This document shows positions 3,677 through 43,301 of a stretch of DNA of 64,000 nucleotides, in pieces. The notes beneath the pieces are model-generated. The model had not been told where the DNA came from. It did not search any database and saw only the letters and a program-made list of their open reading frames with translations. The DNA is from Rhizobium etli CFN 42. Its GTDB lineage: Bacteria > Pseudomonadota > Alphaproteobacteria > Rhizobiales > Rhizobiaceae. The stretch lies in contig NC_004041.2 in the NCBI RefSeq assembly GCF_000092045.1, positions 62,001 to 126,000 of the forward strand, in the 5' to 3' direction. A program made the translations under genes and the position numbers. Numbering within the stretch: the stretch's first letter is position 1; each line of letters starts with the position of its first letter.

Positions 3677-4988
3677 CGCATTGCTTCGCATGGAGCGGAC
3701 GCTCGAACAGACGGACGTGCGGCGGCAGAGCGGCCGCGTGACGAGTGTTTCGGGCCTGCTGGTGCGGGCGCTCATCCCCTCGGTTCGGATCGGCGAGCTC
3801 TGCGAACTGCATGAGCCGGGCAGGGGCCGCATCGGCCTCGCCGATGTCGTCGGTATCGACGGCGAGACGGCACTTCTCTCGCTTCACGGCGAAACCCGCG
3901 GCATCTCCCAGCGCACGGAAATCGTCCCGACCGGCCGGGAGCCGGCGATCTCTGTCGGCAACTTCCTGCTCGGCGCGGTCGTCGATGCGCACGGCAACGT
4001 CCTGCGTCCCTCCGCCAATCCGGCCGGCGATGACGCGCGTTTCCTGCAGCCGCTCTACGGCCAGCCGGTCAACCCCTTGTCGCGCCGTCCCATCCGCCAG
4101 CCGTTCACCTCGGGGATTGCCGCCCTGGACGGATTGCTGACCTGCGGGCAGGGCCAGCGCATCGGTATTTTCGGCGCGCCCGGCGCCGGCAAGTCGACGT
4201 TGGTGTCCCAGATCGTCGCCAACAACAAGGCCGATGTGATCGTCTGCGCGCTGGTGGGGGAACGCGGACGCGAGGTCGGCGAATTCGTTGCCGACAACAT
4301 GCCGGAAGGCGTTGCCTCGAATGTGGCGCTGGTTCTGGCGACATCGGATCGCCCGGCGCTGGAGCGGTTCAAGGCGGTGATGACGGCAACGGCGATCGCC
4401 GAATATTTTCGCGAGCAGGGAAAACATGTGCTGCTCGTCATCGACAGCGTCACCCGCATGGCCCGCGCCTTGCGCGAAGTCGGGCTTGCTGCCGGCGAAC
4501 CGCCGGTGCGGCGCGGCTTTCCGCCTTCCGTATTCGCCGTCTTGCCGCAGATCTTCGAGCGCGCCGGCAACAGCGCAAACGGCACGATGACGGCTTTCTA
4601 TACGGTCCTCGTCGAAGGCGAAGAGCAGGACGATCCGATCGCCGAAGAAACCAGGTCGCTGCTGGACGGCCATATCGTGCTCTCTGACAAGATTGCCAGG
4701 GCGGGCAATTTTCCGGCGATCGATGTGCTGGCCAGCCGAAGCCGGACGATGAGCGCGGTGGTGAGCGAGAGCCATCGCCAGGCAGCCGACAGGCTGCGCG
4801 CCCTGCTGGCCCTCTATGACGAGGTGGAACTGCTGATCCGCGTCGGCGAATATCGCCAGGGGCGCGATGCCGCCGTCGACGAGGCCGTCGCCAAACACGG
4901 GCTCATCCAGCGCTTCCTGTTTGACGGCCAGGGCAAGCCGCAGCCGTTCGGCGCGATCGTCGAAGCGCTCGAGGAGCTTGTCCGATGA
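3669..4988 (+). CDS. rhcN: T3S ATPase RhcN (SctN)
   Basis: F1-type ATPase that unfolds and strips chaperones from substrates at the base of the injectisome. The Walker A motif GAPGAGKST is at about residue 170, a Walker B-type segment (HVLLVIDSVTRMAR) at about 254, and the family-typical RGFPPSVFAVLPQIFERAGN and GEEQDDPIAEETRSLLDGHIVLS motifs follow. At 439 aa it is full length. It is coupled to both neighbours by overlaps (8 bp with sctL, 4 bp with sctQ). Confidence 0.97.
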   Translation: MADALLRMERTLEQTDVRRQSGRVTSVSGLLVRALIPSVRIGELCELHEPGRGRIGLADVVGIDGETALLSLHGETRGISQRTEIVPTGREPAISVGNFLLGAVVDAHGNVLRPSANPAGDDARFLQPLYGQPVNPLSRRPIRQPFTSGIAALDGLLTCGQGQRIGIFGAPGAGKSTLVSQIVANNKADVIVCALVGERGREVGEFVADNMPEGVASNVALVLATSDRPALERFKAVMTATAIAEYFREQGKHVLLVIDSVTRMARALREVGLAAGEPPVRRGFPPSVFAVLPQIFERAGNSANGTMTAFYTVLVEGEEQDDPIAEETRSLLDGHIVLSDKIARAGNFPAIDVLASRSRTMSAVVSESHRQAADRLRALLALYDEVELLIRVGEYRQGRDAAVDEAVAKHGLIQRFLFDGQGKPQPFGAIVEALEELVR

Positions 4989-14862: not shown

Positions 14863-15354
14863 GTGGTCAGAAAACCAAAGGAGGTGCGATCAGCGGAACG
14901 CCCATTGCGAGGATTGTCTGCCCACTCTCCCGGAAGAGATGACGATGACACCTGGGAGAGCGCGGACGTCGTGGCGATCGAGGAGACGGACGATACCGTC
15001 ACCGTACTTCTCTGGCATCTGAAATACTCGCAGGCAGTAATGGGGCGCCGGGCGGACGATCTTTACCTCGTTTGCGGTCAAGCACAGAAGGGGGTGAAGG
15101 GGACATGGAGCTTGAAGAACCTCATCAACCACCTGACCGTGAGAGAAACATCACATCTTAAGGGCCGGGCCCGTTTCATTCGAGGCAGCCTGAATGACTT
15201 GGCCACGCTTCGAAAGGCTGCCCGACGCAAGTTCATCGAGTACCGGATCGGGATTGTACAGCCGGGTCTTAACGGTGAAAACATACCCGCAGAACATCTT
15301 GCGCTTCTGGGAGCGACTGCCACTTCATACTGTCTGTCACCGGGTGTCCCCTAA
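14863..15354 (+). pseudogene. C-terminal fragment of a large DEAD/DEAH-box helicase-type protein
   Basis: The visible part includes VAIEETDDTVTVLLWHLKYS, RADDLYLVCGQAQKGVKGTW and YRIGIVQPGLNGENIP, as separate segments that resemble the extreme C-terminal domain of very large helicase/PLD-type proteins (often above 800 aa). The helicase motifs themselves are absent and the start region has poor coding character. I regard it as the tail left after deletion of the rest. The family match is from memory of the domain pattern. Confidence 0.5.
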
Positions 15355-15613
15355 TGACTGTCGCGAACCGCACCGATCCAGCTTAGCTGCCGGCCACCGT
15401 CTCCAGCGGCGCTACTTTCCATGACGGCAGGGCCGCCGCGAACTGTCACGGCCTTCTTGGGGCTTTCGATATCGAAATTGACGTTGTAGCGGTTCCACTC
15501 TGTAACAGCGGCAGAGCCGCCGACAAAATCAGGGGTAGGAATGCTCGATGTCCTGCCGATTGTTGCGGCGGGTGCATAGCTGCAGTGCAACATAGACGCT
15601 GGCTTCATGGCGC

Positions 15614-15629
15614 TGGCCCGAGTATTGCT
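15614..15629 (+). promoter_or_regulatory. Sigma54-like promoter before the small-RNA locus
   Basis: TGGCCCGAGTATTGCT has GG-N10-GC spacing and one mismatch to the TGGCAC-N5-TTGCW consensus. A start about 12 nt after the GC falls at about 15640, right at the first hairpin of the RNA. No TGT-N10-ACA NifA site was found upstream. Confidence 0.5.
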
Positions 15630-15637
15630 ATTTTCAT

Positions 15638-15797
15638 CGAAGCGATGCTTCCTCCCGCAACGCTTCGAAGTTTAGACGGCCCACTCCTCCTCCCAAAGGG
15701 ACGTCTGTGGGAACAGCGGCACTCCTCCTCCCAGGTCGCCGTTCGGTTCTTTTAGGAAAGCCTGCCGCACCTCCTCCCGCGGCAGGCTTTTCTATTT
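15638..15797 (+). ncRNA. Small-RNA locus with four anti-Shine-Dalgarno hairpin loops (cuckoo/alpha-r14-like)
   Basis: Four consecutive stem-loops each expose a C/U-rich CCTCCTCCC-type loop. Hairpin 1 is at 15638-15667 (stem CGAAGCG/CGCTTCG, loop with CTTCCTCCC). Hairpin 2 is at 15674-15706 (AGACG/CGTCT plus an inner CCC/GGG). Hairpin 3 is at 15711-15744 (GCGGC/GTCGC extended by GAAC/GTTC). Hairpin 4 is at 15760-15787 (perfect 9-bp stem GCCTGCCGC/GCGGCAGGC) followed by TTTTCTATTT, a good intrinsic terminator. Alphaproteobacterial trans-acting RNAs of the alpha-r14/cuckoo type and the CcsR RNAs of Rhodobacter carry the same loop motif, which can pair with Shine-Dalgarno sequences or Hfq-linked targets. 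Whether one transcript or several is made is unknown. Confidence 0.75.
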
Positions 15798-15911
15798 CGG
15801 GGCGATGGGCCGTCAGAGCCCGAGATCAAGTTGGGACTGGGGTCGTGCATTGCCGATCGGAGGTCGTCAGCGTTGAAAGCGTGACGCCGAGCAGCCGCAC
15901 TGGCCGCTTGA

Positions 15912-16484
15912 ATGGATAGACAGTCGCCAATCGACGGGGCATCGTTCGATGGTGTGCTCGAAGATCTTGGCTGGTTCGGCAAACGGTTCACGCCGGACAT
16001 GCGCGCCGATGTGCTGCTGTTTCGAGCGGGAGACCGGCGGCTGGTTGCCGTGGATCCCAAATGGATCCCGCTTCGGCTAACGTTGCGTTTTTATAAGATC
16101 GACAGGACGCGTGTGGCAAGCAACCAAGTTTTCCTATCTCCAGCGCCGGCTGCGGGCGAGGGCCCGGTCGCGTCTTTGAAGGCCATGATGTTCGGCTGCG
16201 TCAAGAGCGCGGCCATGGTCTATGACGATCAACCCATCGTCGACCATTTCCGGCGGATCGACGCCGAGAGGATCATGGGCGCGAAATTTCGCTCTGCGCA
16301 AGTAAGGCACGAACCGTCGAGACGGCAGTTCCTAATGAGCTCATCGAAAGGTCATATCATGCTGAAATACAAGCTCTACGTACTCGTGGTAAAAGCCGAC
16401 GGGAATCTCGCGATCCTCGCCGCGCTTGCCATGGTTCTTACCGCGATATGGCGCGGCGTTTTACCCATAGGAAGTTTCTACTAA
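15912..16484 (+). pseudogene. Fragment of a GXWXG/DUF4334 family protein
   Basis: Residues 8-55 (FDGVLEDLGWFGKRFTPDM, VDPKWIPL) and about 88-122 (KAMMFGCVKSAAMVYDDQPI, VDHFRRIDAERIMGAK) match the pattern of the GXWXG-DUF4334 family. The start of the GXWXG domain is missing: a stop codon immediately precedes the ATG. The C-terminal about 50 residues do not belong to the family and look like a read-through into other DNA. Probably a decayed gene of unknown role. Confidence 0.55.
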
Positions 16485-16553: not shown

Positions 16554-17303
16554 CTATCTCTCACGCGCAACAGCGGAAACGACAAGGTCTGTCATTTGAG
16601 AGTTACCCGGAGCGCCCCACCAGTCGCAGAGGGACAGGTAGGAGAAGTCGCTCACACTGTCACCGTAGCCGATCACTGGGCGACCTGGATGCTCCGTCCG
16701 AAGCTTTTTGAGCAGAAATTGTGAGGCCACCCGTTTTGAGATCGCAGGCGGAACTAGCGCAAGGTTATTGCCGTTGTGGTGTCGAACCCAACCCCGTTTT
16801 TCTCGAATGATCGGCACAATCTCTTCAAGGCGTGAGCCGTCTCCGTCAATCTCTTTGAAGACAACATATGTCGCGAGATCAGCTTCCATCACCGACCAGC
16901 ACCGGATGTGGACGCCAAGTTCCCTCGCCTTGGTCCTGCCCTCATCGAGGAGCTTATCGAAAAAGCCGGCAAGCGGCCGGAGCTCCCTTGCGACGACCTC
17001 ATGCCATTCGGCGTCAGGCTTGCCGTCCTTTTTGAGGATGACGGCACCGTTCGATACGATTGAGTAGCTTTCAAACGCGATCGTAACGCGCGAAAGAGCC
17101 TCAGAGCCGCGCGCCGTAACCGGGATGGCCTCCGTGGAGACGAGCAGCCACTCGACAAAGGCAGCTTGAATCTTCGTCATATAGGAGTTGCTTCCATTAA
17201 TGGATTTGGACGCCAATACCAGATCGGCTTCCGCAATCTCCGGTATCTTTTTCTTGGTTTGAAACAAGGTGTCGTCGAGGTCCACCAGAGCAATGGGCTT
17301 CAT
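16554..17303 (-). CDS. HAD-family phosphatase of a Ter-linked biosynthetic module
   Basis: A 249-residue haloacid-dehalogenase-type hydrolase. Motif I is VDLDDTLFQT at residues 6-15 (nucleophile and acid Asp), motif II is the Thr in PVTARGS (about 62-66), and a late GYGDSVSDFSY segment gives motif IV Asp residues. A Cof-type cap lies between. It is the last gene of a minus-strand trio with a StiP/PELOTA protein and a PRTase-TRSP protein. In Ter-associated gene sets such a phosphatase is thought to dephosphorylate a nucleotide-like intermediate. GGAG precedes the ATG. Confidence 0.82.
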   Translation of the reverse strand: MKPIALVDLDDTLFQTKKKIPEIAEADLVLASKSINGSNSYMTKIQAAFVEWLLVSTEAIPVTARGSEALSRVTIAFESYSIVSNGAVILKKDGKPDAEWHEVVARELRPLAGFFDKLLDEGRTKARELGVHIRCWSVMEADLATYVVFKEIDGDGSRLEEIVPIIREKRGWVRHHNGNNLALVPPAISKRVASQFLLKKLRTEHPGRPVIGYGDSVSDFSYLSLCDWWGAPGNSQMTDLVVSAVARER

Positions 17304-17461
17304 ATGCGTACTCCAAAATGCGACTGGTTAAATATCTGATCGATTGCCAGATGTGAGCTTTCGCGGATTCTCCATTGGCAATGAATTTTACGATACGGAA
17401 TTTGTCACATCTCAGTTTCCTTGACCTGCGCGCCGAGCTCGTAAGTAGACATACGTGGAGA

Positions 17462-18562
17462 TTAGGAGACGTGCCGGATCAGCGTGACGGCGCGGTAGGG
17501 GGCGATCTTTCTAGGGGAGACGACATACGGGACGCCTTTGTTGTCGATCAGGTACATGAGGGCCGCGAGTTCTGGATCGGTTGGCGACGAGACGTACACC
17601 TTTTCCGGCACACGTCGCAGGATGGCCCTGGTCGCCTCCGCAATGCCCGGCTTTACTCGGTTGATGTTCGTTACGGCGTCCTCCCCCATCACCCAGGCGA
17701 CGGCAGCGGCGGCGGCATCGCGATGCGCCCGGCGGGTCTCGATACTCCAGACGCTCGGGATTTCGGTTGCAATCACAGTGGAGACATCATTCCACATACC
17801 ATCCACGAATGATCGGGAAATATCGTGTTCCGCGAGATTATCCCACTGGACGCAGGCGTGGAAGTCACCGGGACCGACGAGGGCAGCGTTGAGGATCGAG
17901 CGGCTGATAAGCCCGGATACGGTGCATCCTAGCATTCCGGAGGGAATAAGCCAGTCGTCGCCCGATGCGGCGAGCCATGCGCAGCCGCAGGGGTCGGCCA
18001 ATACAACTAGCCGCGCAGGCCGGTCTGAGTAGTCCTTGAAGCTCTTTTCGAGTTGGTTCGCAATTGCTCCTTTGCCCGTCCAGCTATCTACGAAGACGAT
18101 GCTCTCGACAGGACGCCTGGCAAGAATGTGGCGCATAGCCTCGTCGTCAACGCCCTTGTCGCGAATGATCGACAACCCGTAGTGTCCGACGTCCCGGCCG
18201 AGTAAGGCGATGGCCCTCTTGAGAAGGATGCCGAAGGGCACGCCGGCGCGGACCAAACTGACAAGGGTAATAGGACCCTCGACCGACTGCACGATCGCGA
18301 GGGCGAGGCGTGCCGTCTCGGCGCCCATGCGCGGGCCACCAGTGGCCATGGCCTTAGCAAACAGCTCCATGTATTCGCGGGTCGGGGCCATCTCGGCGGA
18401 AATCATTTCCGAGTAATGCCGCCGCCCGGATTGGATGGCCTCTTCCCTCGTGGCCGTGTCAGTAGGCTGAATATCCACTCTCTTGAGAAGGAGCGTCACG
18501 TCGTATTCGGCGTAGGAGCCTAGTGTGGCAGGGGAGGCGATGCTGTCATAGGTATCCCCCAT
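17462..18562 (-). CDS. StiP-like protein with C-terminal PELOTA domain (Ter module)
   Basis: A 366-residue protein. The body (about residues 20-260) shows a phosphoribosyltransferase-like fold with SVEGPITLVSLVRAGVPFG, a VFVDSWTGKGAI segment (about 155-166) and a DPCGCAW motif (about 188-194). The last about 70 residues (EKVYVSSPTDPELAALMYLID, then KGVPYVVSPRKIAPYRAVTL) match the PELOTA-like RNA-binding domain. This pair of domains is called StiP in Ter-associated operons, where it has been proposed to be a cysteine protease or PRTase-derived enzyme. Flanked on the same strand by the PRTase-TRSP and HAD genes. Confidence 0.75.
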   Translation of the reverse strand: MGDTYDSIASPATLGSYAEYDVTLLLKRVDIQPTDTATREEAIQSGRRHYSEMISAEMAPTREYMELFAKAMATGGPRMGAETARLALAIVQSVEGPITLVSLVRAGVPFGILLKRAIALLGRDVGHYGLSIIRDKGVDDEAMRHILARRPVESIVFVDSWTGKGAIANQLEKSFKDYSDRPARLVVLADPCGCAWLAASGDDWLIPSGMLGCTVSGLISRSILNAALVGPGDFHACVQWDNLAEHDISRSFVDGMWNDVSTVIATEIPSVWSIETRRAHRDAAAAAVAWVMGEDAVTNINRVKPGIAEATRAILRRVPEKVYVSSPTDPELAALMYLIDNKGVPYVVSPRKIAPYRAVTLIRHVS

Positions 18563-18676
18563 GGGAGTGATGTCCTTAGGTAACGCGACAGCAGTGTTGT
18601 GTCGCTGTGGACTGGCGGAAATGTCCGATCGAGTGAGCCGATTTCGAAGCGGCAGACCGCATGGCCTAAGGCGGCT

Positions 18677-19810
18677 TCATTCACCTTCTACGTCTGAAAG
18701 GACAATGGGATCGCCCAGTGCGGACATCAGGCTGGCACAGACATTTTCCGGGCCTGTCTCCGAGCAGAGTATAATTTTCGAGTACAGCGCTGGATCGACG
18801 TTGTAGAGGTAATGTGGAACCGTTCCGCCGTAGTTGTCGGAGAACGAAAGTACTGAACCGATCGCGTGGCCTTTCGACAGGGGAGAACGCGTCACGGATG
18901 AATAGAAAACCTCAGCGCCCTCCTTTTCCAAGCGCTCCGCAAGCAGGAAGGGCTGCCACACGTGTTCGCCCGTTCCGAGTACGAGGGTAATCCCGTCATC
19001 GGCAGCGTTTGCATTGAGACCCTGCAAGTGATCGACGACGCCGAGACGCGCCCAGTCTCGAGCGACGTCGGGACAGACCTCGGGCCGCTTAGGACGGTCA
19101 CAGGAAGGGACCTGCGGAGTAGCTGCCGTGAAATCCCCACGCGGAGTCCAACTGTACCGTCCGGAAACGATAGTAGCCTCACTGACTGTTCCCGTGATCT
19201 CCGCGCGGGCAGCGCCTTCTGACCAGTCGGTAAGCGTAAGTAGGACTGTGTGCTTCAGCTTCAAACGAATTTTTGCAGGAAGGGCAGCGAAGATGTTGGC
19301 AAATGTCTTACCTGTCGAAGCCTCATCGTCAACGAGTACCAAGCCGGTCGCACCATGAACCAAGTCGCGGAGCCTTGCCTCGCATGGTTCGTGCAGGAGG
19401 TGCCGCGGGGCATGGCTATGCTCTTCCTCAAATTCGCACAGCAGCGGCAGTTTAAGATCATGGCGAGTGGAGCAGATATATATTGCATCGCCGCGACCAG
19501 TGAGTTCGCGGAACCGCCGATGGACACCCGCACCAAGGCCAATGCCCGCTTCGGCTATTCCGATGAACAAAACCGGACCAGGAATATCGGCAGGAATCTG
19601 ACGTGCAAGGAGGTCGAATGCATTTCCCATGACCGAAGGGCGGATCGGCAGGAATCGACCAAGAACCTTGGAAACAAACAGAAACGAGCGGTTCGGGTTG
19701 ATTCGCTGCCCGAAGCCGAACATCTCGATGGGGGGTACAAGGCTTCGATCCACGTGAACCGAGATAGTGCCGTCGGCGAGTTGCGCAGAGTATGTTGAAG
19801 GATTCACCAT
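18677..19810 (-). CDS. Phosphoribosyltransferase with TRSP domain (Ter module)
   Basis: A 377-residue protein. The PRTase part has a PRPP-binding-like segment LVLVDDEASTGKTFANIF (about residues 155-172) and an upstream VLFIGIAEAGIGLG. The C-terminal half (about 240-370) contains ITLVLGTGEHVWQPFLLAERLE, SPLSKGHAI and FSDNYGGTVPHYLYNVDP, matching the TRSP domain that follows this PRTase in Ter-associated nucleoside-like metabolite operons. It is the first gene of the trio. The usual ATP-grasp, CitE-like aldolase and TerD-family partners are not in this window. Confidence 0.78.
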   Translation of the reverse strand: MVNPSTYSAQLADGTISVHVDRSLVPPIEMFGFGQRINPNRSFLFVSKVLGRFLPIRPSVMGNAFDLLARQIPADIPGPVLFIGIAEAGIGLGAGVHRRFRELTGRGDAIYICSTRHDLKLPLLCEFEEEHSHAPRHLLHEPCEARLRDLVHGATGLVLVDDEASTGKTFANIFAALPAKIRLKLKHTVLLTLTDWSEGAARAEITGTVSEATIVSGRYSWTPRGDFTAATPQVPSCDRPKRPEVCPDVARDWARLGVVDHLQGLNANAADDGITLVLGTGEHVWQPFLLAERLEKEGAEVFYSSVTRSPLSKGHAIGSVLSFSDNYGGTVPHYLYNVDPALYSKIILCSETGPENVCASLMSALGDPIVLSDVEGE

Positions 19811-20692
19811 TGCCAGCTTTCGAAAGTACGGACGTTTACCGTGGAAAAAATCCGTGCCATATGTTTCCGTGACGCCGCACGCTCATTGGCGTCTCGTTGA
19901 CGAGCAGGGTAGCACTTACCTCTCGAGGCTCAGAGTGCATCCGCGCCACGATATCGCAGGAGAATTCGCCGGCCCTTGGCGCGAAGGCCAGCACGGCCGA
20001 GCGCCTCCCTGGTTTCAGCTTCGTTGGGGCTAAATCCCGATCTGAGGCCTTCCTGCCCCGTCGATGCGGCTCGTGACCCATCTCCGACAAAGCGACTGGG
20101 GCGATAGAAATAGAGTTTACGTCAGTTCATCCTCGCTCTCTGCGGTGAATCAGTAGCATGAAGTGAAGCAAGGGACGTGCCACTCGGACATGCAGCACGA
20201 ATGGGAGCTGAATAGGCACCAGAACTCGAATATTGCATTCCAGGTCTCACGCGGCAGATGTCCAGATTGCCGGGAAATTTCGTATTGCATCCATAACGGC
20301 TTTGGGCGACGGATTGCGGGACCTGCCATGGCAAGCGCGTGCGGTCGCGAAACCTCAGATGGCGGCGAAGCGCTGCAGTTAAGAGAGATGCTGGAGCGTA
20401 TATTCGCCTAAACGCTGCTGACGTGGCGGTTGGGCCTTTGAACGGTGGACGAGATCAGCCGGGAAAAAAGGCGTAGCTTCATTGAAATCGGCAGGGTGTA
20501 CCCCGCCCACTACCGGGGATCAGAGCAGGCCAGCCTTGGCCCCAACCTGCGATGATAGCAGGTGCCTGGGGCACCTCCAGCACGTCGAGGGTTCTGCATC
20601 TTCGTGTCAGCCAATAGCCGACAGTTCGCACCACGTTTGTATTCGCTTTGTCTGCTTTACGACAGACTTAAGTCTTGATGCCTGCACTCAGC
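19811..20692. other. Gap upstream of the Ter-type trio, no gene called
   Basis: Nearly 900 bp. It presumably includes the promoter of the minus-strand trio. Short open frames (for example 19836-20090 minus and 20163-20411 plus) show no recognisable domain or convincing ribosome binding site. Part may be IS debris linked to the elements that follow. Confidence 0.4.
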
Positions 20693-20865: not shown

Positions 20866-21063
20866 ATACGCCAAGTGGCGCGGTGTGAGCAACCGGCAAC
20901 GCGGATCGTGTCCCAGCACCTGGTGTAGCTGACGGTAGGGAGTAAAGCCGAGCGCCCGCGCGCTTCTCGTTGCGCTGTAGCGGGTGATCGGCTTTGCGGG
21001 CGGCCATCAGTGTTTTCCGCTAGGGTCGGGTTGTTCAAGACCAACCTGACGGAAAGATCACCG

Positions 21064-22217
21064 ATGACCAATGACATGATGAACGTGCGTTCGCTTGTTG
21101 AGAAGAGTGCCGATGCAGATTTGTTGCGTGAGATGATTGGCTTTGCCGCCGAGCGGCTGATGGAGTTGGAGGTCGGCTCGGCCACGGGTGCTGACTTCGG
21201 TGTGAAGAACCCCATGCGGCTCACTCAACGCAATGGCTACCGTGACCGCGATTGGGAGACGCGGGCTGGCACCGTCGAGCTTCGCATTCCGAAGCTGCGC
21301 AAAGGCAGCTACTTTCCGAGCTTCCTTGAACCGCGCCGCATGGCAGAGAAAGCTCTGACGGCCGTTATCCAGGAAGCGTATATCCAGGGAATCTCGACTC
21401 GTTCTGTCGACGACCTGTGGTGGATGCGACCTATCTCAAGGTCCGGCGTGGCGGCCGCATCGTCTCAGTCGCCGTCATTATCGCGGTCGGCGTCAATAAC
21501 GACGGTCGGCGCGAGGTCCTGGGTATGGAAGTTGGCACCTCGGAGGCCGAACCGATCTGGACGGAATTCCTGCGCAGGCTAACGCGCCGCGGTCTACGCG
21601 GGGTGAAGTTGGTTGTCTCTGATGCACATGAGGGCATCAAGGCCGCCGTTTCCAAGGTTCTCAATGCCACTTGGCAAAGGTGCCGGGTTCACTTCATGAG
21701 GAACGTGCTCGCGCATGCTGGAAAGAGCGGCAGGCGGGTCGTATCCGCCTTCATCGCGACGGCCTTTGCCCAGGAGACCCCGGAGGCAGCAAGCGCACAA
21801 TGGCGCAGTGTCGCCGATCAAATCAGGCCGAAAGTGCCGAAGCTTGCCACCATCATGGACGACGCTGAAGAGGACGTGCTCGCCTACATGACCTTCCCCA
21901 AAGAGCACCGGGCAAAGCTGCACTCGACGAATCCAATTGAGCGTCTCAACGGCGAAATCAAGCGACGCACCGAGGTCGTCGGCATCTTTCCGAACGACGA
22001 AGCCATCGTCCGTCTCGTCGGTGCATTGCTGCTCGAACAGAATGATGAATGGGCCGTTCAACGCGCCAGGTATATGACGCTTGAGACCATGGCCCAAATG
22101 AGCGATGATCCCCAAATCAGCCTGCCCCGCTGTGATGTCGGGTCAGGAAACGAGCGGGACAGCAGGCTAATACACTGCCCGAATTGCCCCGTGTGGACGG
22201 CAAGCGTCAAGCCTTGA
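21064..22217 (+). pseudogene. IS256-family transposase, internally deleted and frameshifted
   Basis: The N-terminal part (from ATG 21064: [54 protein letters not shown]) continues in a second frame from about 21420 with [40 protein letters not shown] and STNPIERLNGEIKRRT. IS256 transposases normally have about 40 residues between SVDDL and the catalytic Asp in (V/I)DATY; these are missing and the frame changes at the join. It is therefore inactive. I could not define the terminal inverted repeats with certainty. Confidence 0.85.
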
Positions 22218-22808: not shown

Positions 22809-22824
22809 TGGCACGTCGCTTGCT
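22809..22824 (+). promoter_or_regulatory. Sigma54 (-24/-12) promoter of melA
   Basis: TGGCACGTCGCTTGCT matches the RpoN consensus TGGCACG-N4-TTGCW exactly, with GG-N10-GC spacing. The expected start at about 22835 gives a leader of about 150 nt to the melA ATG at 22985. Rhizobial tyrosinase genes on symbiotic plasmids are known to need NifA and RpoN. Confidence 0.8.
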
Positions 22825-24983: not shown

Positions 24984-25382
24984 ATTGGCAGTCGGGGCTG
25001 ATTTGCCGCTAGCTCCAGAACCTTGGCGGCAATGAAAGTCCGCCGGATAAAATAGAGGGTTTTGATAGGTTGTTGTGACAAAGGTCCAACGCGCAGCGCC
25101 TATCGTGGTCAACAGTTTACAGTCTTGCCGCTGCATTCGGCGACTGATGGTCGTCTGCAAGCAGGCAAAGGTTTTTGGCCGACCCGAGACTAGGCTCAAG
25201 ATAAAGTCGCTCTTAAAGGCATTGAACCAACGACGCGTTCCTAGATCAGTAAAGTGACTCTTCAACCACTTCAGATGCTTGCGCGGAGTCTGTCCGAAAG
25301 CTGCATTGACTTCGCACGCGGTCCAAAACCGATTCAGACTGCGCGTTCAATTCAAAACTGAAGATTAGACGTGTGCTTTTAA
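24984..25382. other. Intergenic region, no gene called
   Basis: About 400 bp upstream of the next sigma54-type promoter. It has no exact TGT-N10-ACA site and no recognisable coding sequence. Confidence 0.4.
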
Positions 25383-25398
25383 TGGCACTGGATTTGCA
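25383..25398 (+). promoter_or_regulatory. Sigma54 (-24/-12) promoter of the M28-like gene
   Basis: TGGCACTGGATTTGCA fits TGGCAC-N5-TTGCW exactly with GG-N10-GC spacing. The expected start at about 25409 leaves a 57-nt leader before the TTG start at 25466. Confidence 0.75.
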
Positions 25399-25465
25399 AG
25401 GACACGGGCGGCGTGCGGCCATAGGTATCGCTTCCATTCGTGATAGAGAGGCGCGGAGGTTAGTC

Positions 25466-26995
25466 TTGAAACGAAGAGATTTTTCGACTGTTGGGCTCAC
25501 TGCTCTTCTCGCCGGGATCGTATTCCCGGCTTTTCCCAGCACCGGATTCAGTGAGCAGCGAAAGCCGTCCATCCCCGCACTCCCTGATCAGCGGAAACTT
25601 TGGAGTTGGATCAAAAGGCTCAACAGTTTCGGCCCCCGATTGACCGGCAGCCCGGCGCAAGCACGGGCAATCGATTATCTTGCTGGTGAGTTGAGAGGGA
25701 TGGGCCTTGAGGTGAAGCGCGATCAACTCACGATGCGCCGGTGGATGCCACGAACCACCGCGTTCAAACTGTCAAATGGTGAAGTAATTGAGGTAGCGGC
25801 GCCGTTCCCGTATTCCGGGCTTACACCTCCCGGCGGTATCTCGGGTAAGATGGTTCTTTTCAACGGTCGGGTTCAGGCGTTTGAGAAAGCCCGCGGCAAA
25901 ATTGCGGTGGTGACGGTAAAGCGTCGGGATCTGGCGGCATTCCTCGAACTGGTGACCAATCGACGCGGCAGCCTGCCGGAAGGCATAGACTTTCCCAAAG
26001 CCGTAACCACGCCGCTTATCACCGGTTTGCTTGGCGTACCGATCGACAAGGCGCGTGAAGCAGGGGTTTTAGCCGTCGTTTGCATTTTCGAAGGCGTCTC
26101 GGAAGTGCAGTTGAAGGGGCAGGTGCTGCCATTCACCACACCGTATTGGGGCTTACCTGCAATATGGGTGGCGCAATCTGAAGGAGAGCGGATCAAAGCC
26201 GCGATCAAGCACGGTTTGAGCGGTCGCCTGACCTTGGATGGCACGTTGGAAGACGTTGCGACCGATACGATTTATGCGGTTTTGCCGGGCTGCAACCTGC
26301 TTGAGACAATCATCATCAACACCCACACCGATGGACCTAATGCGTGCGAAGAGAACGGCGGTGCTGGGGTACTCGCTCTGGCGCATTATTTCTCCTCGCT
26401 ACCGAAATCTGCCCGCAACCGAAGCCTCGTCTTCGTACTCGTCACGGGTCATTTCCAGCTTGCCCAGTTCGGCCGCCACGGGAATCAGGCGACGGCGACC
26501 TGGCTCGAAATGCATCCAGAATTGTGGGACGGCAAACCCGGCCATGCTAAAGCCGTTGCAGGAGCTACGATTGAGCATCTTGGATGTACCGAGTGGCGAG
26601 ATGACTTTGCAAAAGGGCACCCCGCGCCCACCGGGAAGCCGGAACTCGATTTGATCTATACCAGTAATAAGTCGATGAGTGGCGTGTACATCGCTGCCGC
26701 ACGCGGGCGCAAAAAGGTACGCGCGCTGATAGTCGCCCCAGCGGCGGCGCAGGTGATGTTGGGCGAAGGACAGCCATTATACGCATCAGGAATTCCGACG
26801 ATATCAAGCTGTCCGATACCGGACTATCTTTGCCAGGTCTTGCCGGGCGGAGGCTTGGACCGGCTCGACCCTGATTACGCCTTTCAGCAAGTCGAAACCT
26901 TTGCCCGCACGGTCGACTTGCTCGACAGGATGCCGCGTGGTGAGATCGGAATCGTTCCGTTTAACCTGTCCACTGTTATCGGTGATCTGCTGTAA
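25466..26995 (+). CDS. Exported M28-peptidase-like protein with altered active site
   Basis: A 509-residue protein. The TTG at 25466 is chosen because GGAGG lies 6 nt before it, it yields a Tat-like leader (KRRDFSTVG, then a hydrophobic stretch), and an upstream ATG at 25382 would fall inside the promoter. After the leader come PSIPALPDQRKLWSWIKRLNSFGPRLTGSP (read in parts, residues about 34-65), typical of the N-terminus of M28 aminopeptidases. A PA-like insert (about 110-240) and the metal-site region NTHTDGPNACEENGGAG (about 286-302) follow. Where M28 enzymes have a Glu-Glu dyad, this protein reads VLVTGHFQLAQFG, so the catalytic base is missing or replaced. It may bind rather than cleave, or use another chemistry. 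Confidence 0.72.
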   Translation: MKRRDFSTVGLTALLAGIVFPAFPSTGFSEQRKPSIPALPDQRKLWSWIKRLNSFGPRLTGSPAQARAIDYLAGELRGMGLEVKRDQLTMRRWMPRTTAFKLSNGEVIEVAAPFPYSGLTPPGGISGKMVLFNGRVQAFEKARGKIAVVTVKRRDLAAFLELVTNRRGSLPEGIDFPKAVTTPLITGLLGVPIDKAREAGVLAVVCIFEGVSEVQLKGQVLPFTTPYWGLPAIWVAQSEGERIKAAIKHGLSGRLTLDGTLEDVATDTIYAVLPGCNLLETIIINTHTDGPNACEENGGAGVLALAHYFSSLPKSARNRSLVFVLVTGHFQLAQFGRHGNQATATWLEMHPELWDGKPGHAKAVAGATIEHLGCTEWRDDFAKGHPAPTGKPELDLIYTSNKSMSGVYIAAARGRKKVRALIVAPAAAQVMLGEGQPLYASGIPTISSCPIPDYLCQVLPGGGLDRLDPDYAFQQVETFARTVDLLDRMPRGEIGIVPFNLSTVIGDLL

Positions 26996-42819: not shown

Positions 42820-43301
42820 CTGATCCGATCCCTTTGCTCCTGCCCCATTACAGGGCCCTCAACGCTCATACGGATCGGTCCGCCCCAGTCTCCTGCATCG
42901 GTACTCTCGCCTTACGGTTTCTCCGCTTGGGCTTCTCCCTTGGCATCAGGAGCCTGGTTCCTGCAGTTCCGGGTGAAAGCCTGTGTCCAACTCACGCCCC
43001 CTCTACGCCGGTCGCCGCCCGCCCAATCATCAGGCACCCGGCGGACTTGTCCCAGGATGACGAAACAGTCCTGGTTTCGACGACGCTTATATTCATAACG
43101 GCGCGTCTTCGGAGGGTTCACTTTCGTTCGTCTTCGGACACGCACCTGCTCGGATCTCGTCCGAACTTTTCATCCGGCGCTCACCACCACGGCTCTTTAC
43201 CGCAGCAGCTCGGACTGGTTTGAGACCCGCTCCTGAAAGCCGATCCCGGAGGGCCATCCTCCATCATTCACGCAGCTTCACGTTACGGGGTTAGCTCACA
43301 C
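42314..43301 (-). mobile_element. Group II intron remnant
   Basis: On the minus strand an intron 5' end GTGTGAGC begins at 43301, directly after IS630-type coding sequence. About 480 nt of non-coding sequence with group II-like features (for example GAGCCGTGGTGGTGAGCGCC around 43170-43200) then leads into a broken reverse transcriptase. The 3' end and domains V/VI were not located, so the left border is only that of the coding fragment. Confidence 0.6.

Follow-up and report, generated by a model that had tools for sequence, protein, structure and literature searches.

What kind of RNA is encoded on the forward strand at 15636-15800, and which sigma factor would transcribe it? Positions refer to the window, the whole 64,000-nt stretch of DNA that was analysed, which spans positions 62001-126000 of a 371,254-base replicon that we take to be the symbiotic plasmid p42d of Rhizobium etli CFN42. 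Type III secretion genes adjoin the RNA locus on this plasmid. A first-pass annotation had described four adjacent anti-Shine-Dalgarno (anti-SD) hairpins behind a sigma54-like promoter. Many nitrogen and symbiosis genes have promoters of this type. We find that the RNA is of a known kind and that, judged from sequence, its promoter is lineage-specific and most resembles the sigma54 type.

A four-hairpin RNA of the ar14/cuckoo family

The Rfam model ar14 (RF02344) matches the forward strand at 15668-15794 with 97.1 bits (cut-off 58.8). Together with the relatives described below, this score bears out the ar14/cuckoo link drawn in the first-pass annotation, and the RNA is a four-hairpin member of that family, whose small RNAs act in trans. 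The complete RNA folds at -71 kcal/mol (z = -5.1), an energy reached by 0 of 200 shuffles. Four hairpins follow each other on the forward strand: hairpin 1 (15637-15668), with the shortened anti-SD loop CTTCCTCCC at 15648-15656; hairpin 2 (15673-15707), with the loop CTCCTCCTCCC at 15684-15694; hairpin 3 (15711-15744), with the loop CTCCTCCTCCC at 15722-15732 and three internal loop pairs in the minimum-energy fold; and hairpin 4 (15755-15792), an intrinsic terminator with the loop CCTCCTCCC at 15770-15778 and a 14-bp stem with a GC-rich core, followed by TTTTCTATTT. The anti-SD motif CCUCCUCCC is present in all three hairpins covered by the ar14 model (2-4), and the extra hairpin 1, outside the model, holds only CUUCCUCCC of it. 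The earlier description of each loop as CCTCCTCCC-type therefore holds for loops 2-4 and is slightly generous for loop 1, which reads only CTTCCTCCC. Loop 1 is two bases shorter than that of the nearest relatives, and two bean-plasmid records (L080 and L081) carry a one-base variant of it.

Folded singly, hairpins 1 (z = -5.4) and 4 (z = -5.5) are both far from chance and hairpin 2 is modest (z = -1.7), while energy alone does not set hairpin 3 apart from chance (z = -0.2; 66 of 200 shuffles as low). Covariation was assessed in an alignment of 35 sequences, taken from the 62 loci introduced below. Double changes occur at 16 pairs and fill 56 cells, where shuffles average 18.7 and 0 of 500 reach that count. 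Pairing is possible in 95.1% of cells versus 92.2% in shuffles, a margin that is narrow because many RNA columns hardly vary, and versus 35.6-49.7% with slid partners, a control over which the tested structure is favoured, as it was derived from those same sequences. All nine pairs of helix 2 show double changes; 80.9% of its cells are paired, a value that partly reflects imperfect alignment there, and the helix is absent from the RNAalifold prediction on the same 35-sequence alignment. Helix 1 is nearly invariant, so its support comes from conservation and energy. With the fold of the complete RNA and covariation across 35 sequences in agreement, the four stem-loops are present as first described.

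Relatives were collected with a hairpin-1 pattern. Of 394 sampled Rhizobiaceae genomes, 39 contained it, with 51 matches in total; because the pattern requires the hairpin-1 core, it misses diverged members. A filter for at least three TCCTCC cores passed 45 of these 51 and dropped 34 pattern matches in all, 6 of them among the 51. The filtered genome matches, together with plasmid and named genome loci, make up 62 distinct promoter-plus-RNA sequences, a count of sequences rather than of independent lineages that does not imply four intact hairpins in each. For example, at one locus (L128, 1355-1519, reverse strand) a deletion has taken the loop and 3' arm of hairpin 2 as well as the 5' arm of hairpin 3, and units of the four-hairpin RNA can therefore be lost. 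Three of the 62 sequences are bean-plasmid alleles that share one promoter. At least 99% identity to the promoter and hairpin 1 was found in 34 plasmid records, with Phaseolus vulgaris as host or source in 31.

Within the R. etli genome itself the ar14 model gives seven matches, six of them above the cut-off. One paralogue, on a 505-kb replicon (C6, 443009-443130), is 83% identical over the common stretch and has the same four-hairpin layout; it retains the -10 hexamer TATGAT and has a DUF1127 gene upstream, whereas the p42d copy has neither. A second small RNA, ar35, was seen near ar14 sequences in two places: at 4578-4708 (reverse strand) of L009, on the Sinorhizobium C101 plasmid, where ar35 scores 88.8 bits and lies about 1.5 kb from the ar14 RNA, and at 2578-2719 of L007, in the R. 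etli genome itself, where ar35 scores 47.2 bits and an ar14 match below the cut-off is about 1 kb away.

A sigma54-like box at the family's -10 position

The TGGCC-N6-TTGCT box that had been read as a sigma54 promoter lies at 15614-15629 on the forward strand (TGGCCCGAGTATTGCT). Its GG (15615-15616) and GC (15627-15628) have the exact GG-N10-GC spacing, and the start near 15640 that was predicted from it falls 12 nt beyond the C at 15628. Alignment with relatives puts the ancestral start at about 15636; a start at 15640 drops the base of hairpin 1 yet leaves 8 of its 11 pairs. Across the 12 positions scored, the box has one mismatch to the sigma54 consensus, a C for the A of TGGCAC, which counts against sigma54 transcription.

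The box is derived. The hexamer TATTGC (15623-15628, forward strand) stands where the nearest relatives have a sigma70-type -10, TATGAT. The bean allele has TGC instead of GAT at 15626-15628 (G to T, A to G, T to C). These substitutions remove the -10 and create TGGCCCGAGTATTGCT; the ancestral bases are identical in five sisters and in L011. The sigma70-type -10 at the position typical of the ar14/NfeR1 family is thus absent from the p42d copy. Among the 59 loci outside the bean plasmids, 46 have a TAnnnT hexamer ending 5-7 nt before the conserved ATCGAAG, and the other 13 have hexamers such as TATAAC, TATATA, TATATG, TAAAAG or TGTATC. A sigma54 box with at most two mismatches was found at none of these 59 in a search that kept GG and GC fixed and ran, at all 62 loci, from -45 to +10 nt of the CATCGAAGC match, and the box is confined to the bean-plasmid lineage among the loci examined. 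At the aligned place the number of mismatches to the consensus is 5 in L134, 5 in L010, 7 in L009 and 9 in L074, versus 1 in the p42d allele.

Compared with five sisters (L010 and L134 are not homologous across the whole block), the p42d allele has 20 private changes in a 424-nt block, three of them adjacent and on the -10. The chance that three private changes adjoin somewhere in the block is 0.036, and all three adjacent changes match TTGC. Their location on the -10 and their spelling of a sigma54 element make coincidence less likely; since the reader who singled out the box had been searching for this kind of element, we place sigma54 transcription of the p42d RNA only a little above even. 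The nearly identical bean-plasmid copies mean that persistence of the box is not independent evidence for it.

Comparison strengthens the sigma54 control that the first-pass annotation proposed: the box is derived, occurs only in the bean-plasmid allele among 62 loci and replaces the -10. Against it, the accessible text of an R. etli tiling-array study reports no significant RpoN consensus upstream of 89 detected ncRNAs, a set that may not include the p42d locus, and points to previous work in which predicted R. etli ncRNAs gave the same outcome (PMC2881028). The p42d locus goes unmentioned in the available portions of two R. etli transcript studies (PMC2881028, PMC4167512). Nor was a report of the promoter change found in the literature searched, where texts were partly accessible and coverage of subscription journals is thin.

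Could sigma70 still drive the RNA, with the sigma54 match as a by-product? A possible shifted extended -10, TGCTATTTT, lies at 15626-15634 on the forward strand, and its TATTTT agrees with TATNNT, the lax -10 consensus of R. etli SigA. Both the LsrB-like box and the palindrome are retained upstream, and NfeR1, the most thoroughly studied ar14 RNA, from Sinorhizobium meliloti, uses sigma70 with LsrB according to the available parts of two studies (PMC7143759, PMC10746234). However, with respect to the activator box the shifted hexamer has moved by half a helix turn (6 nt), no good -35 lies 16-18 nt before it, and a sigma70 promoter leaves unexplained why the three changes spell TTGC. We consider it unlikely.

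Sigma54-type sites are enriched on the plasmid. A scan with TGGCACGN4TTGCW, GG and GC fixed, found 18 sites with at most one mismatch versus 3.3 expected from 20 Markov simulations. On the same plasmid, fixA and each of the three nifH copies have a box with one mismatch; the nifH boxes, found through a protein motif, have GA in place of GC and were therefore missed by the strict scan. Three identical one-mismatch sites that had been considered as the nifH promoters were ruled out once the nifH boxes had been located separately. Within the window, a perfect consensus at 20182 on the reverse strand (TGGCACGTCCCTTGCT) lies upstream of a same-strand PRTase_2/TRSP, StiP/PELOTA and HAD-like cluster (16554-19810), in which the HAD-like label comes from sequence reading, with no Pfam match. 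Another at 22809 on the forward strand (TGGCACGTCGCTTGCT) precedes what is probably the start codon (ATG) of a gene for tyrosinase (Pfam PF00264), presumably melA, and a one-mismatch site at 25383 (forward strand) is near the start of the open reading frame 25373-26995, which has no Pfam match.

Upstream boxes and the history of the block

The first-pass annotation went further and made the RNA a NifA/RpoN-activated switch that represses translation in bacteroids. The sigma54-like box and a place on a symbiotic plasmid beside type III secretion genes are compatible with such a switch. However, NifA control is not supported by the upstream region, as no exact TGT-N10-ACA occurs in 15201-15640, whereas fixA has one; two sites with one mismatch lie at 15359 and 15561. 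Exact NifA sites occur 30-300 nt before 4 of the 18 plasmid sigma54 sites, including that of fixA, and in 2.7% of random segments. Two of the three nifH copies have an exact site within 420 nt and one does not, so its absence at the p42d RNA still leaves room for NifA. The only exact regulator-like palindrome upstream is of the NtrC type, and its core is old. We regard the NifA-driven bacteroid switch as improbable.

Two other boxes were recognized upstream. An LsrB-like box, TGCGGCGGGTGCAT, lies at the family position (15564-15577, forward strand) and reads TGCG-N6-GCAT, one mismatch from TGCA-N6-GCAT, which the accessible text of the NfeR1 studies gives as the LsrB box about 72 nt before the NfeR1 start (PMC7143759, PMC10746234). 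Relatives such as L010 and L011 have the perfect form. A palindromic box, TGCATAGCTGCAGTGCA (15573-15589, forward strand), overlaps it and fits TGC-N11-GCA, the pattern described for NtrC in the same partly available studies (PMC7143759, PMC10746234). Its core is common to the sigma70-type relatives, and its distance of about 59 nt to the predicted start is short for an enhancer; both points, like the lack of an exact NifA site upstream, weigh against sigma54 transcription. If NtrC does activate through this retained box, its effect on the p42d RNA would be opposite in sign to its effect on NfeR1.

The promoter and RNA sit in a block (15507-15930, forward strand) with 86-89% identity to Sinorhizobium plasmids, which also holds a dinB remnant. 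The S. americanum alignment to the block begins at 15559, and L134, the second locus of a same-genus genome that also carries a copy with the bean-type hairpin 1 (G194), aligns over 15507-15816 at 86-89%. On the S. americanum plasmid the RNA lies tail to tail with a whole dinB, followed by ligD, a hypothetical gene and a DUF4334 gene. At the same place the window retains no more than the 3' terminal part of dinB (15812-15930, reverse strand, start approximate), and the DUF4334 gene (15912-16484, forward strand) comes directly after, with its predicted start within the remnant. Elsewhere in the window, a group II intron piece (RF01999, 114 bits) was seen at 43144-43262 on the reverse strand, and a Mutator-family transposase in two overlapping frames at 21010-22217 appears frameshifted or broken.

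The lost neighbours and the two lost loop bases are as in a decaying copy, but neither the terminator nor the anti-SD motifs of loops 2-4 have been damaged. The locus could be a decaying, silent copy in which mutation destroyed the -10 and the sigma54 match is coincidental. The shortened loop 1 and a DUF1127 gene not found within 700 nt upstream (home-made profile, positive at 21 of 62 loci) fit decay and weigh against sigma54 transcription, and the truncated dinB also fits. A TGC from three random changes has a chance of about 1 in 27, which is not negligible after a search for stories. On the other side stand the intact hairpins 2-4, with their motifs and terminator, and the stretch 15744-15802, which is identical in L134, L009 and L010. 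We judge decay to be doubtful.

The reading that we prefer is that an ar14/cuckoo RNA moved from a sigma70 to a sigma54 promoter on the bean symbiotic plasmid, and as a whole we put it barely past the point of balance. An RNA copy would have reached the ancestor of the bean (phaseoli) symbiotic plasmids together with the adjoining dinB segment and a sigma70-type promoter. The -10 would then have changed from TATGAT to TATTGC, which with a TGG at the right distance would complete a sigma54 -24/-12 promoter, and RpoN polymerase with an enhancer-binding protein would now make the RNA under conditions unlike those of its paralogues. By analogy with NfeR1 of S. meliloti, the CCUCCUCCC-type loops may bind the GGGAGGAGG-like Shine-Dalgarno regions of several mRNAs by base pairing and so prevent their translation. 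A mechanical open-reading-frame scan of plasmid Shine-Dalgarno regions gave 30 start/loop pairs with at least 8 complementary bases, uncontrolled candidate leads; among the 25 of these 30 that were listed, the best, likewise uncontrolled, are at plasmid positions 132855 (GGGAGGAGG) and 143731.

If this promoter move is real, one short mutation can bring a translational repressor with many targets under nitrogen and symbiosis control. Little is known about how symbiosis acquires its regulatory RNAs, and the locus offers a clean before/after comparison: 59 relatives without the box, 46 with a recognizable -10, one of these in the same cell, and one altered plasmid lineage. Tentatively, and at well below even likelihood, it may be a sigma-factor swap caught in the act, in which three adjacent changes turned a sigma70 -10 into a sigma54 -12 and a putative translation blocker entered the RpoN regulon; its relative NfeR1 works against NtrBC.

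Comparison with known systems

Four units in a row had been called striking. As a novelty this is ruled out, as RNAs with four CCUCCUCCC-loop hairpins were described in 2011 as the RFMSmelA099 class of the cuckoo family (PMC3927594) and our collection holds 62 distinct sequences with the hairpin-1 core and at least three TCCTCC cores. The class and the p42d copy share four consecutive CCUCCUCCC-loop hairpins, with loop 1 shortened in p42d. It has relatives in both R. etli strains, among which the p42d copy may or may not be, and one Agrobacterium tumefaciens member (L5) was confirmed by sequencing and Northern blot (PMC3927594). The available text of that description does not mention a promoter of a p42d copy (PMC3927594).

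The CcsR1-4 RNAs of Rhodobacter sphaeroides also come four in a row. The accessible text gives them a role in stress defence and describes them as cut by RNase E from a transcript shared with the DUF1127 gene (CcaF1), with an RpoHI/RpoHII promoter (PMC10253847). They are separate, DUF1127-linked sRNAs, whereas the p42d copy has no such link. The CcsR1 model (RF02791) does not match the p42d locus at an E threshold of 0.01. The genome has 10 DUF1127 matches, all of them away from the window's replicon, whereas the CIN1 layout would place one upstream on the strand of the RNA. With no DUF1127 found upstream and no CcsR1 match, a CcsR/DUF1127 operon was ruled out for the p42d copy. An annotated DUF1127 gene lies upstream in five of the seven annotated stretches outside the bean plasmids (L011, L077, L078, L079 and L082; absent from L009 and L010); L074-L076 carried no annotation and are outside the seven.

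A rhizobial sRNA under sigma54 would have predecessors, since RpoN motifs are predicted before the S. meliloti sRNAs MmgR, SmelC165 and SmelB033 in the accessible part of one source (PMC7143759). These are other RNAs, and the same table, as far as available, gives RpoD only for the ar14 member NfeR1 (PMC7143759).

In the available portions of the NfeR1 studies, ar14 RNAs are described with three hairpins; LsrB activates and NtrC represses NfeR1 (Smr14C2), whose promoter is of the sigma70 type, and the anti-SD loops of NfeR1 redundantly silence ntrB and other mRNAs (PMC7143759, PMC10746234). The p42d copy shares with NfeR1 the ar14 family, the anti-SD loops and the terminator, and may share the LsrB box, of which it has a one-mismatch form about 72 nt before the start; it differs from NfeR1 in having four hairpins and a sigma54-like box that replaces the -10.
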